Made by a program: the position numbers and the translations under genes. The notes beneath the pieces were generated by a model, which worked only from the letters and a program-made list of their open reading frames with translations, did not search any database and was not told the DNA's origin. This document shows, one piece after another, positions 6,534-17,895 of a stretch of DNA of 64,000 bases; the first letter of the stretch is position 1, and every line of letters begins with the position of its first letter. The stretch lies in NCBI RefSeq assembly GCF_021155765.1, contig NC_060109.1, positions 3,683,001-3,747,000 on the forward strand. The letters run 5' to 3'. Source of the stretch: Diprion similis. Lineage: Eukaryota > Arthropoda > Insecta > Hymenoptera > Diprionidae.

Positions 6534-6634
6534 AGTGGATAATACAGGAGAGTTCTGGAATCTAGTTCCAATTTCCGCCACCAGCCCCCCTATTCCTACA
6601 GGCCGGGGCGACTGCAGCGCCGCTGGGGGAGGGT

Positions 6635-6652
6635 GGGGGGGGGGGGGGGGGG
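6635..6652. repeat. G homopolymer, 18 bases
   Basis: An 18-base G run lies in the left arm; the matching place in the right arm (17783-17794) has only 12 C. Length differences of this kind are expected of polymerase slippage or assembly error and account for part of the size difference between the arms. Confidence 0.85.
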
Positions 6653-7195
6653 ATTCCTGTCGGGTCGTGTTCGACGGCGAGAGGCTCTAGGTTAGATAAC
6701 GCTAGACCACTTGAAAAAATTCCTGGAAATGCTGCCTCTCAGCTCATGCCGATAATAAACGCAGTGGGATAGGGACACAAGAAGGAAATTAAAACCATGC
6801 CAGAATATTTGGAAATGTGCTTATGCATCATTATGAACCATCGCAAAAACCTTATGCAGAAATTTACCAAGCGGTTCACTCTTGGCTAATCGTCGCAGGG
6901 TCGGATTCTCACCATCTGGGTTCAATAATTACTGACTGCTGCTACGTTTTATCAAAAGGCTTTTCCCGAACAACCCTTTTCGTCAGGTTCCATAAACATG
7001 AATCACCCGGTCAAGAGTCTAGGGATCAGAATTCATCTCTATGCCGCTCGAAGCCACTCTTCGCCAGCCGATTCTCTCACTGTGTATCTTCAAAGTTTTT
7101 TTGCACTGATAGGGGAGGGATGGGCGTATGCAGGCTCAGACGTGGTTGACCACAATTTTTATCTTGGAAGCTGCTGCTGTTGCAGAACGCGGAGA

Positions 7196-7240
7196 CCCCC
7201 CCCCTCCCTCCCTCCCTCCCTCCCTCCCTCCCTCCCTCCC
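7196..7240. repeat. C9 plus (TCCC)9 microsatellite, left arm
   Basis: Nine C followed by nine TCCC units, about 100 bp upstream of the polymerase start. The right-arm counterpart (17194-17239) has one extra G. The G-rich strand could form quadruplexes. Confidence 0.9.
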
Positions 7241-7343
7241 GATCCTTCGACATAAGGGCAACACATCCATTGCAGACTCATCAGTCTTACACAACACGTG
7301 AAAGTGAAAAGTTCAGAATATCATCGTCACCAACGTCAAAGTC

Positions 7344-14721: not shown

Positions 14722-17090
14722 CGCGTCAAAAACAAGCCCGGTGCCGTGTAGTAGTGCAACGGATCTAAATCGTATGTTTTAAAACAGCTAGCCCGGAAAT
14801 TTTGGAAAATATCAGCAAGTAACAAAACATCCGTCTTTAAATATAAATCGGAATAGGCCCCCAAAGACTCTAAACGGAATTCTTCCCAAACATTTTTAGC
14901 GTGCTCGTAATCGGCGTCTGTGATATTCGAATTGCAGAGGTGCGAGTAGAAATGATTCTTTGCAGGTAATTGAGTTTCGTCGAGTTTCTTCCAACAATCG
15001 ACGTATTCGTAAGGAAATACGCCTTTGCGGTTCATCAAGCTGAACTGCGCGGGATTATTGTAAAATTTACGTGTTATGCGTTTATCGACATCGCCTAAAT
15101 ACGAAGAAAGTTTATCAATACTGCTAGCCATAAATCGAAACGAATCGATGAATCTCAAATGCATCATCGTCCCATCAACCTGCTTCGTGAAGGATATATA
15201 TTTTTCCTTATTTATGGGTAGCAGTGTAACCGCTCCGGGAAAAGTTAAAGCCAGGGATTTGATCAAAAAATGTGAATCGTAACCGGACAAATTGTGGAAA
15301 ACTGTCGGAATTGTATGCGACTCTCTGAAATTCAAATTACACCGATTATGCGCAGGACCGCGATATTTACCCGTGAAGTGACAATGATCGTGGCACTTTT
15401 TCTCCTCGGGAGTAAACGGCTTTTCACAAATATAACAATTTTTTGCGCGCATGTGACGATCGCGTTGCACTTGGGTGAGAGACTCCATCGGAATTATATT
15501 TTTGATTCGTGACTCTACTTTAACCGATAAATCTTTAAGCTGCTGCATGAACCAATCTATGCAATCGGTGCCGCGTTTACCGTGGAACTCCGATAAGGTC
15601 TCATCGTACGCGCAATGTACGTAGTATGCTACACTGTGCGGGATATGCTTTTGAATTTTATATGTTTTACGGTTTTGAAATTCGTCTACAGGTTCGGATT
15701 TTAATATACATTCGAGATCGGCGTAAACAACAAACGGGACAGCGCCTTTGTTTTTGAAATTTTTAAACTTCAAATTTAAATCTTCAGATCTTGGAAATTC
15801 CATGCGCACTTTATTCAACATAATACAATCCTGCCGATGTTGGTCGTAGGCGTGTTTTACGGCGAAGTGGCATAGGCATGTATCGCATAAAAACAGTTGG
15901 CCATTATGTTGAGACAATTGTTTGCTAACCAATCGCGAGAGATCTTTGATCCAAGCAAAGTGGAATCTTGGTGTGAATTCGCGGTTCACATCATGCTCGG
16001 GACAATTGTTACTTTCAAGCATTAGAAGATGAATCGTGTCAACGTTTGCGCTATGCTGATTTTTACTCAAATAAATCGGCACGATGATGCTTTTCTCGGA
16101 TTTTGCATGATACGAGAAAGTTTCGGATTCTATTGCATATACATTGATTCGCAAATTATTTGATTTCTCAAACTTTTCCACATCATGCAGTTTAGCGGGA
16201 AATTTGATACCTGTGCAGTAGAACTCTAAAATATGCCTACGATAATGATGCACCCTCTGAGCGTCTTTGTTGACCAGCTGGAGGGCTGCAGCTGTGGCCC
16301 AGAGAAGACATCTTTCGTCTTCGTTTTTCACGTTGACCACCGCCTTCTTGCGCTGAATGTCCTCCGGTAGCATGACGAATGTTGAAGTCCCCGCGGCGAG
16401 AGGCTGGTACCGGTTGACGTTTACAGCAATATTTAAAATCTCGATCATACTCCAGCCGGAATCGCGTTGTTCGAAATCTTCGACCTTTACGAGCAGTATG
16501 TTCTTTGCGTCCGCGAACCAGCCGTCTATATCACTCGATGGGAGGATCGTCACGTTGGATGTATTGAAGCTTTTAACTTCCGCAGCGACCTCGTCATGCT
16601 TGACGTGTTCAAATTTGCATGTCAATATCATGTTGACCTTCACATTCCCCTCATTACGCTGTGCCAGTTTCAATTTTCCAACGATGATCCGCCGCGCGTC
16701 GCTCAGAAAGACCTCCAAATCCTTATGGCCAAGATTGGTCACAATGCCGGTGCGAATCCAGTTAGCAAAAGCGCTGTCAACATCGTCCCACTGTACACCC
16801 GCTGGACTACTGATATTGCCGCCTATCACGAGGCCGTGCTGCCGCTGTTGCTGCTGGATCTTTGCGACCCGGGATTGTATGAGGAAGATCTTATGTTGGA
16901 TTTGCTGTTTCACCCCCACACTCATTCTCGGCTGTTGAAGAATGTCTCGCAAAACTTGTATATTTGCCACTCCAATACCAATCCAATGATTAAAGACATC
17001 GTGACTTCCTTCTCCGGGAGTTTGCTCGCGCAGCAAATTGTACGCCTCCCCCATCTGCTCGACGAGTCCCATGTATGCTTCGGCGGCCAT
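14700..17090 (-). CDS. Protein-primed DNA polymerase B, N-terminal part (right arm)
   Basis: Second copy of the 796-aa exonuclease-half ORF: YADLEC, endonuclease VII-like CYIC...RCN insert, FHNLSGYDS, Y-x3-D. It differs from the left copy at residue 300 (K here, T on the left; base 16192). Long antisense frames are also preserved identically in both arms, which shows that synonymous sites are nearly unchanged too. The same break occurs at the C-terminal end. Confidence 0.9.
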   Translation of the reverse strand: MAAEAYMGLVEQMGEAYNLLREQTPGEGSHDVFNHWIGIGVANIQVLRDILQQPRMSVGVKQQIQHKIFLIQSRVAKIQQQQRQHGLVIGGNISSPAGVQWDDVDSAFANWIRTGIVTNLGHKDLEVFLSDARRIIVGKLKLAQRNEGNVKVNMILTCKFEHVKHDEVAAEVKSFNTSNVTILPSSDIDGWFADAKNILLVKVEDFEQRDSGWSMIEILNIAVNVNRYQPLAAGTSTFVMLPEDIQRKKAVVNVKNEDERCLLWATAAALQLVNKDAQRVHHYRRHILEFYCTGIKFPAKLHDVEKFEKSNNLRINVYAIESETFSYHAKSEKSIIVPIYLSKNQHSANVDTIHLLMLESNNCPEHDVNREFTPRFHFAWIKDLSRLVSKQLSQHNGQLFLCDTCLCHFAVKHAYDQHRQDCIMLNKVRMEFPRSEDLNLKFKNFKNKGAVPFVVYADLECILKSEPVDEFQNRKTYKIQKHIPHSVAYYVHCAYDETLSEFHGKRGTDCIDWFMQQLKDLSVKVESRIKNIIPMESLTQVQRDRHMRAKNCYICEKPFTPEEKKCHDHCHFTGKYRGPAHNRCNLNFRESHTIPTVFHNLSGYDSHFLIKSLALTFPGAVTLLPINKEKYISFTKQVDGTMMHLRFIDSFRFMASSIDKLSSYLGDVDKRITRKFYNNPAQFSLMNRKGVFPYEYVDCWKKLDETQLPAKNHFYSHLCNSNITDADYEHAKNVWEEFRLESLGAYSDLYLKTDVLLLADIFQNFRASCFKTYDLDPLHYYTAPGLFLTRCLNTQR

Positions 17091-17193
17091 GACTTTGACG
17101 TTGGTGACGATGATATTCTGAACTTTTCACTTTCACGTGTTGTGTAAGACTGATGAGTCTGCAATGGATGTGTTGCCCTTATGTCGAAGGATC

Positions 17194-17239
17194 GGGAGGG
17201 AGGGAGGGAGGGAGGGAGGGAGGGAGGGAGGGGGGGGGG
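17194..17239. repeat. (GGGA)9 plus G10 microsatellite, right arm
   Basis: Counterpart of 7196-7240 with one extra G, which shifts the arm offset from 24434 to 24435. Confidence 0.9.
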
Positions 17240-17895
17240 TCTCCGCGTTCTGCAACAGCAGCAGCTTCCAAGATAAAAATTGTGGTCAACCACGTCTGAG
17301 CCTGCATACGCCCATCCCTCCCCTATCAGTGCAAAAAAACTTTGAAGATACACAGTGAGAGAATCGGCTGGCGAAGAGTGGCTTCGAGCGGCATAGAGAT
17401 GAATTCTGATCCCTAGACTCTTGACCGGGTGATTCATGTTTATGGAACCTGACGAAAAGGGTTGTTCGGGAAAAGCCTTTTGATAAAACGTAGCAGCAGT
17501 CAGTAATTATTGAACCCAGATGGTGAGAATCCGACCCTGCGACGATTAGCCAAGAGTGAACCGCTTGGTAAATTTCTGCATAAGGTTTTTGCGATGGTTC
17601 ATAATGATGCATAAGCACATTTCCAAATATTCTGGCATGGTTTTAATTTCCTTCTTGTGTCCCTATCCCACTGCGTTTATTATCGGCATGAGCTGAGAGG
17701 CAGCATTTCCAGGAATTTTTTCAAGTGGTCTAGCGTTATCTAACCCAGAGCCTCCCGCCGTCGAACACGACCCGACAGGAATCCCCCCCCCCCCACCCTC
17801 CCCCACCGGCGCTGCAGTCGCCCCGGCCCGTAGGAATAGGGGGGCTGGTGGCGGAAATTGGAACTAGATTCCAGAATTCTTCTATATTATCTACT

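Follow-up and report, generated by a model that had tools for sequence, protein, structure and literature searches.

A palindromic Polinton-class element with a polymerase gene in each arm, and its relatives in the genome of Diprion similis

The stretch of Diprion similis DNA analysed here has a length of 64,000 nucleotides (contig NC_060109.1, positions 3,683,001 to 3,747,000) and is referred to as the window. It contains, at positions 6534-17895, an element of the Maverick/Polinton class that consists almost entirely of one palindrome, with a gene for a family-B DNA polymerase (PolB) in each arm. A preliminary description of this DNA found the architecture unfamiliar. How could such an element arise, and does it stand alone in its genome? 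The element has palindromic relatives at other loci. The best explanation appears to be a non-autonomous palindromic Polinton lineage, which descends from a single founder, obtains its integrase in trans and has kept its polymerase under some purifying selection. We estimate the probability of this explanation at about 0.6.

Structure and insertion of the window element

The positions of all features are listed in Table 1. The two arms are reverse complements of each other, as the preliminary description had stated, and are separated by 1,343 bp. Their alignment base by base contains 14 mismatches in 5,006 aligned bases (0.28%) and two indel runs. In the inverted-repeat search the identity was reported as 100% for an arm core of 4350 nt (7196-11545 and 12889-17238) and as 94-99% for the outer parts. 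Of the 14 mismatches, eight fall within the outermost 156 nt and four within the innermost 145 nt, which leaves only two for the 4.7 kb between. Chance can be excluded as the source of this symmetry, because the next-longest inverted repeat in the window has only 220 nt at 87% identity.

Both termini of the element read AGT, and the six bases CACGTT are found directly outside on both sides. A duplication of 6 bp is what Polintons generate on insertion, as described in PMC8097293. When the host flanks were fused (200 bases from each side, with CACGTT once), they gave a contiguous match of 92% at C1:16902772-16903169, where CACGTT is present in a single copy. The flank-junction sequence recurs elsewhere in the genome, and the target is therefore a dispersed host repeat. 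The whole palindrome 6534-17895 is one insertion with exact borders and a 6-bp duplication. Another candidate for an empty site, C1:12750855-12751209 (81%), also spans the junction. It is not counted as a clean empty site because it is rearranged just left of the junction and has CACGTT twice, 16 bases apart.

The polymerase gene is broken into open reading frames (ORFs) of 796 and 471 amino acid residues, which lie in different frames, and the break is identical in both arms. On the left arm, the first ORF contains the exonuclease motifs Exo I-III of the family-B enzymes, and the second contains the palm motifs A, B and C. The right-arm ORFs differ from these by one residue. A full motif set in each arm had been described before, and all of the motifs were found; the gene that carries them, however, is interrupted in both arms. 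The AGT ends, the CACGTT duplication and the PolB motifs in each arm uphold the assignment to the Maverick/Polinton class with polymerase-bearing inverted repeats.

The integrase stub of the preliminary description is real. It is an 88-residue C-terminal chromodomain remnant, homologous to the C-terminus of a full integrase of 306 residues elsewhere in the genome; its Chromo match (E 0.008) falls short of the curated cut-off. The only ORFs of at least 180 residues within 6534-17895 are those of the polymerase and frames that overlap with them. The element thus has three of the features that define Polintons, namely a protein-primed family-B polymerase, inverted ends (although the repeats extend over 5 kb) and the 6-bp duplication, while of the retroviral-type integrase it has the remnant only. 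The packaging ATPase, the protease and the major and minor capsid genes are absent from it and occur in full copies elsewhere. The element is classed as a non-autonomous derivative because the complete gene set is not present in one element. A polymerase kept with the capsid module lost is also the mark of linear plasmids. The named relatives of the polymerase are from insects (Neodiprion, Microplitis, Cotesia, Chrysoperla and others). No match to it was found in phage records and IMG/VR, collections that may omit the records of this genome and in which one IMG/VR pattern stretch is unconfirmed.

Related elements in the same genome

The genome searched comprises 269 Mb in 60 contigs. The search for more copies with the same ends, which the preliminary description had proposed, was successful. 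Eleven elements with the end type of the window element were examined: the window element itself and E2-E11, which were assembled from fetched pieces and represent ten of the 15 other end pairs taken from the top 40 end matches. The palm segment of the polymerase is present in both arms in eight of the eleven (the window element, E2, E3, E5, E6, E7, E8 and E11), the right-arm copy of E2 being partial. Of the others, E9 and E10 are reduced and E4 is a full Polinton. The standard half consists of the end, the polymerase, an A-rich tandem repeat, the antisense integrase C-terminus, two more segments and the axis, after which everything is mirrored. The arms and centre measure 6.7 kb and 63 bp in E3, 6.8 kb and 724 bp in E11, 6.4 kb (of which 0.15 kb is flank) and 1,988 bp in E6, and 6.9 kb (of which 0.5 kb is flank) and 2,249 bp in E7. 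End to end these four elements are 13.5-15.0 kb long, close to the 14.2 kb of E4, a similarity that would fit a packaging limit. The preliminary description had allowed that such 5-kb repeats might be the normal form of a parent element. This is half correct: they are the usual form in this sub-lineage (8 of 11) and not in the full Polintons.

Target duplications were assessed by eye. All six bases agree in the window element and E9, and five of six in E2, E3, E8 and E11; in E3 and E8 the mutated end was set by a base or a few. The flanks of E6 and E7 are mirrored, with the symmetry continuing past the element ends. E8 (28.9 kb) and E5 (19.3 kb) were considered as full parents and rejected; judged by eye from their ORFs, they are palindromes holding a gypsy-like retroelement. 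It lies in the tandem-repeat region, has extra frames after its integrase, and is located at positions 880-5793 of piece L039 (E8) and 278-5898 of piece L032 (E5). E12, whose ends were initially paired at a distance of 36 kb, has a nearer end and may be shorter.

The palindromes share a breakpoint and an axis. The homology to the full integrase ends within 2 nt of one position in all 18 centre pieces, which come from 14 loci. Six of these loci were picked by their likeness to the centre of the window element, which favours agreement; seven loci found by their ends alone (E2, E3, E6, E7, E8, E10 and E11) show the same breakpoint. At the axis a stem encloses a spacer of about 62 nt, and this axis recurs at 23 loci, counting matches that reach past the loop, which itself lies in a dispersed repeat. 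The stem continues through all 160 nt tested in E8 and about 140 nt in E11, and the arms of E3 are 63 nt apart. In the window element the stem reaches about 80 nt from the axis, and the left side lacks about 1.2 kb of inner-arm sequence, which is why the 1.34-kb centre of this element looks unique. The size given in the preliminary description stands; comparison with the related elements, in which this sequence is mirrored, shows that the centre is mostly inner-arm sequence left single, as an asymmetric deletion would leave it. E2, E10 and E13 (the last from coordinates) have suffered other losses on one side of the axis. Since other palindromes have the same integrase breakpoint and axis, the window element is not a single oddity, and its architecture, although unusual beside that of vertebrate Mavericks, is not unique to it. 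Three inverted pairs with another end type also surround the shared palindromic centre (C13:11716204-11725578, C14:955017-964754 and C14:2443541-2449847), which may thus be combined with other ends.

Full-length relatives with a single polymerase and the full gene set, for which a search had also been proposed, are present in the same genome. Their gene order was read across piece C13:11662000-11671999 and E4 (C2:762628-776789, 14.2 kb). The polymerase faces the 306-residue integrase (rve 2.5e-15, with chromodomain) and is followed by two ORFs and an A32-like ATPase; next, on the other strand, are a phospholipase A2-like protein, an adenain-like protease (a weak match, E 0.02-0.07), another ORF and a double-jelly-roll capsid protein (1e-118). 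The integrase core is nearly full length at an identity of at least 95% in 22 of 43 matches (best 40 of 70 candidates scored), and the capsid gene has an identity of at least 94% in 23 of 41 matches (best 40 of 62 candidates scored). No inverted repeat of at least 60 nt was found within the pieces of two full Polintons (0 of 3 pieces). E4, the only full Polinton among the elements read that has palindrome-type ends, shows a milder overgrown terminal repeat of 1.4 kb, which extends into the polymerase gene; its two copies fall on separate pieces and so outside this within-piece test. A polymerase of 1,254 residues (P0001), found on a metagenome contig of 15,276 bases, is 75% identical to the 996-residue ORF of one full copy; the contig is perhaps a free or recently related Polinton.

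Within the palindromes the arms are kept alike. When 40 palm segments were arranged in a tree, both arms of an element proved identical or sisters in all 11 pairs, one of which is formed by two mirrored loci about 44 kb apart; the tree leaves out both arms of E16, which are too short, and the partial right copy of E2. Between elements, the palm segments of the top 40 matches are 93-98% identical to that of the window element. The arms of E5, about 5% apart, are an exception in degree. In E7 an insert of 329 bp is identical in both arms and absent from the other loci searched, which did not include the two arm pieces of E8. In E8 an insert of about 1.06 kb is found at the same place in both arms, inside an ungapped match of 5.8 kb. 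This insert is a dispersed repeat, since window positions 2251-3253 are related to it (74%).

The differences between arms are concentrated near the element ends. In the sum over the window element, E2, E3, E8 and E11, which were chosen for their target duplication and long arms, 35 of 58 differences lie in the outer 500 nt, where 5.1 are expected. Outside this sum, the differences are likewise heaviest in the outermost 500 nt in E4, E9 and E10, and are spread along the arm in E5. In E6 and E7, whose symmetry extends into the flanks, the element ends are free of mismatches, but the totals are only 0 and 3. Crowding at the borders of homology would be expected of conversion between arms, which fades where homology stops. 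The mirrored inserts and the border-crowded differences point to arm-to-arm gene conversion.

At three places the symmetry is larger than the element. The palindrome of E6 (G000:C14:721267-736711; L034, L035) continues about 150 bp into the flank, and that of E7 (G000:C12:1634422-1650458; L036, L037) continues at least 500 bp into a flank that is a many-copy repeat. The left flank of E6 contains a 46-bp remnant of an element end, together with the target sequence in inverted orientation, as though a copy of the right junction had been made there. At G000:C13:10893336-10946701 two near-identical copies in mirror orientation turn their ends towards each other across about 44 kb; this arrangement would represent a larger chromosomal palindrome or a segmental inverted duplication.

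Proposed origin and maintenance of the lineage

In the preferred explanation, the founder would have arisen from an ordinary Polinton whose left end, with the polymerase, was copied in inverted form and took the place of the rest of the genome. The genes for ATPase, protease and capsid and the core of the integrase would have been lost in this event, and the axis would have come to lie within a rearranged integrase region. Protein-primed linear replicons displace single strands with complementary ends; if the 3' end of a displaced strand folds back (snap-back) and is extended, an inverted duplication of one end would result, and the polymerase beside that end would be kept. Parallels are the left-end palindromes of adenoviruses and the derivatives of yeast pGKL1. 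The palindrome could then multiply as a unit with two good ends for priming and integration. The protein-primed polymerase would come from its own two gene copies, and integrase, perhaps also capsids, from the full Polintons, of which this genome has many. After insertion the arms would convert each other, so that lesions are mirrored, and the palindrome would later decay by asymmetric deletions near the axis, as the window element has done. The insertion with its target duplication and unoccupied site, the descent from a common form with one breakpoint and axis, the homogenisation of arms and the presence of relatives with the full gene set are established by the sequence data; we infer the snap-back origin, the integrase in trans and the active self-replication. 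The element acts like a satellite of Polintons, a derivative of the family that has neither full integrase nor capsid genes.

The role of the polymerase was assessed from 18 palindromic elements, one arm each, including a member at C2:1.86 Mb whose assignment relies solely on its end and its place in the tree. In pairwise comparison, the non-synonymous to synonymous ratio is 0.295 among these and 0.301 among 11 full copies. Variants common to at least two of the 18 elements comprise 46 synonymous and 28 non-synonymous changes and 1 stop (0.16). Shared variants unseen in full copies stand at 21 synonymous to 22 non-synonymous, a small sample that falls below the ratio simulated for neutrality (p 0.007 to 0.0006, depending on the transition bias assumed). 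Of 13 palindromic loci, three have a frame of 1,258-1,261 residues that is uninterrupted in each of the copies examined; at the other ten the gene is broken or shortened. On these results, purifying selection on the polymerase during the history of the lineage is likely, not proved. Many present-day palindromic copies, including that of the window, are dead.

Several observations weigh against this explanation. Variants confined to single elements (91 synonymous, 203 non-synonymous and 8 stops; 0.59) are much nearer neutral, only 43 variants make up the class unseen in full copies, an appearance of selection could also result from exchange with those copies, and the two polymerases of the window are both interrupted. 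The lineage is not cleanly set apart in the polymerase tree, where the full Polinton E4 and one palindrome form a group (91/66) and support for the remaining palindromes is weak (26/89). The main clade of full Polintons has ends unlike those of the palindromes. No target duplication was found by eye for E4, E5 and E10, and no trace of the shared centre in E5 and E9. The PAD-like match is of middling strength, and the palindromic element is known from chromosomal sequence alone, no extrachromosomal form having been observed. A bolder extension, less likely than not, is that the palindromic replicon has partly left viral life, with only its ends and polymerase kept under selection, replication through a self-complementary hairpin intermediate by which one arm is copied into the other, and spread in the germ line with a borrowed integrase.

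The strongest alternative is a passive derivative, for which all proteins, the polymerase included, are provided in trans, and whose polymerase genes only hitch-hike in overgrown terminal repeats. The split of both window copies, the stops and frameshifts common elsewhere, and the milder repeat of E4 that reaches into its polymerase gene are consistent with it. The three pairs with another end type are also in its favour, since by their coordinates only about 1.4-3.1 kb separate one of the two ends from the shared centre, a space too short for the 3.8-kb polymerase gene. However, the retention of the polymerase in both arms of eight elements, the uninterrupted frame at three loci and the purifying selection indicated by shared variants argue against it, and we consider the passive derivative rather unlikely.

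Another alternative is that ordinary or half elements inserted first and became palindromes on the spot, by break-induced copying between their terminal repeats. The arms are evidently homogenised after insertion, and the palindromes of E6 and E7, which run into flanking DNA, imply that some symmetry does arise on the chromosome, a further point against the single-founder explanation. The window palindrome, in contrast, stops exactly at its target duplication, and the unoccupied site shows a clean insertion. In addition, the integrase breakpoint of 14 loci and the axis of 23 would need a repeated origin, which makes a general origin of this kind improbable. An assembly artefact, in which a fold-back misjoin doubled one arm, is largely refuted: near-perfect inverted repeats are a known failure point of long-read assembly, but here different host DNA on the two sides is linked by the 6-bp duplication, an unoccupied target exists, the arms differ at 14 positions, most of them at borders, many independent loci agree, and the same assembly contains two full Polintons whose pieces show no such repeats.

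Table 1. Positions of the features of the palindromic element in the window
Feature	Positions	Strand	Evidence or remarks
Left target-site duplication CACGTT	6528..6533	+	single copy at unoccupied C1:16902772-16903169
Left arm of palindrome	6534..11545	+	inverted-repeat search, arm alignment
Left terminal segment (AGT end, G-run)	6534..7196	+	copies across whole family
Left PolB, first ORF, 796 residues	7344..9734	+	terminal-protein-like domain, OTU-like Cys/His, Endonuclease VII-like zinc motif, exonuclease motifs
Left PolB, second ORF, 471 residues, frame differs from first	9713..11128	+	DNA_pol_B_2 2.6e-17; palm motifs A, B, C
A-rich tandem repeats, left arm	11215..11504	+	repeat search; units of 21 nt and 128 nt
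Centre (axis hairpin and single-copy inner-arm sequence)	11546..12888	+	comparison with related elements
Palindrome axis	11572..11732	.	stem ~40-50 bp, loop ~62 nt (within dispersed repeat); fold z -15
Integrase remnant, C-terminal chromodomain ORF, 88 residues	12511..12777	+	canonical-integrase homology starts at 12523
Right arm of palindrome	12889..17895	-	inverted-repeat search, arm alignment
Tandem repeats, right arm	12944..13219	-	repeat search
Right PolB, second ORF, 471 residues	13306..14721	-	ORF list
Right PolB, first ORF, 796 residues	14700..17090	-	split same as left arm
Right target-site duplication CACGTT	17896..17901	+	flank comparison

Two other features of the window were recorded. 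A host gene for a receptor tyrosine kinase is represented by pieces that begin about 4.3 kb to the right of the element (22243-27499, + strand). They comprise two fibronectin III-like ORFs, of which one just exceeds the curated cut-off and the other falls below it, and two kinase ORFs, the second with a Pfam match of 9e-42. The 220-nt inverted repeat pair mentioned above (87%), at 56813-58105, encloses a second pair of 102 nt and, by this structure, is probably a small inverted-repeat transposon.

Comparison with known systems

The element resembles animal Polintons/Mavericks of the adintovirus-like type in its AGT terminus, 6-bp duplication, inverted ends, polymerase with terminal-protein, OTU, exonuclease and palm parts, and integrase C-terminus; its full relatives in the genome also have the integrase, A32-like ATPase, adenain-like protease and double-jelly-roll capsid of these elements. 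It differs in having the polymerase gene twice, in the loss of integrase core, ATPase, protease and capsid gene, and in its length of 11.4 kb, compared with 12.7-24.6 kb for Polintons/Mavericks. Inverted repeats of 46-1,447 bp are given for vertebrate Mavericks in PMC8097293, while the repeats have 5 kb here and up to about 6.8 kb in the relatives. No palindromic Polinton was found in the open-access literature searched, which is weak evidence of absence. A warning follows for genome assemblies: near-perfect inverted repeats of 5-7 kb can be real mobile elements.

Polintons are regarded as ancestors of several groups of eukaryotic DNA viruses and of linear plasmids, and the cytoplasmic linear plasmids as derived from (proto)polintons by the loss of morphogenesis genes, according to the account in PMC11071308. 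The window element is similar to the cytoplasmic and mitochondrial linear plasmids in that the protein-primed polymerase is kept and the morphogenesis genes are lost. Unlike them, the palindromes are inserted in chromosomes at many loci with target duplications. Palindromic or hairpin derivatives that retain one end are familiar among linear plasmids, for example the derivatives F1 and F2 of yeast pGKL1, and a derivative of the kalilo plasmid reportedly forms hairpins. If the proposed explanation is true, a palindromic lineage that has lost the packaging and integration genes, keeps the polymerase twice and moves as a unit would show how protein-primed replicons can shed the viral module. In the bolder extension given above, it would also be a present-day counterpart, within animal chromosomes, of the passage from polinton to linear plasmid.

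Defective genomes of adenoviruses are similar in that the left end of a protein-primed linear genome is duplicated and inverted. They are, however, free viral genomes, while the palindromes of D. similis form a heritable chromosomal lineage. The arms also recall the ampliconic palindromes of Y chromosomes, which are held alike by gene conversion. These offer a precedent for arm conversion, with arms differing by 0.021-0.028% within a species compared with 1.44% between species in the values quoted from PMC3403216. The Y-chromosome palindromes contain host genes, while the palindrome described here is a mobile element, and some tens of such long palindromes dispersed in one genome, each offering many bases for comparison between its arms, provide a natural set for measuring gene conversion and palindrome decay.

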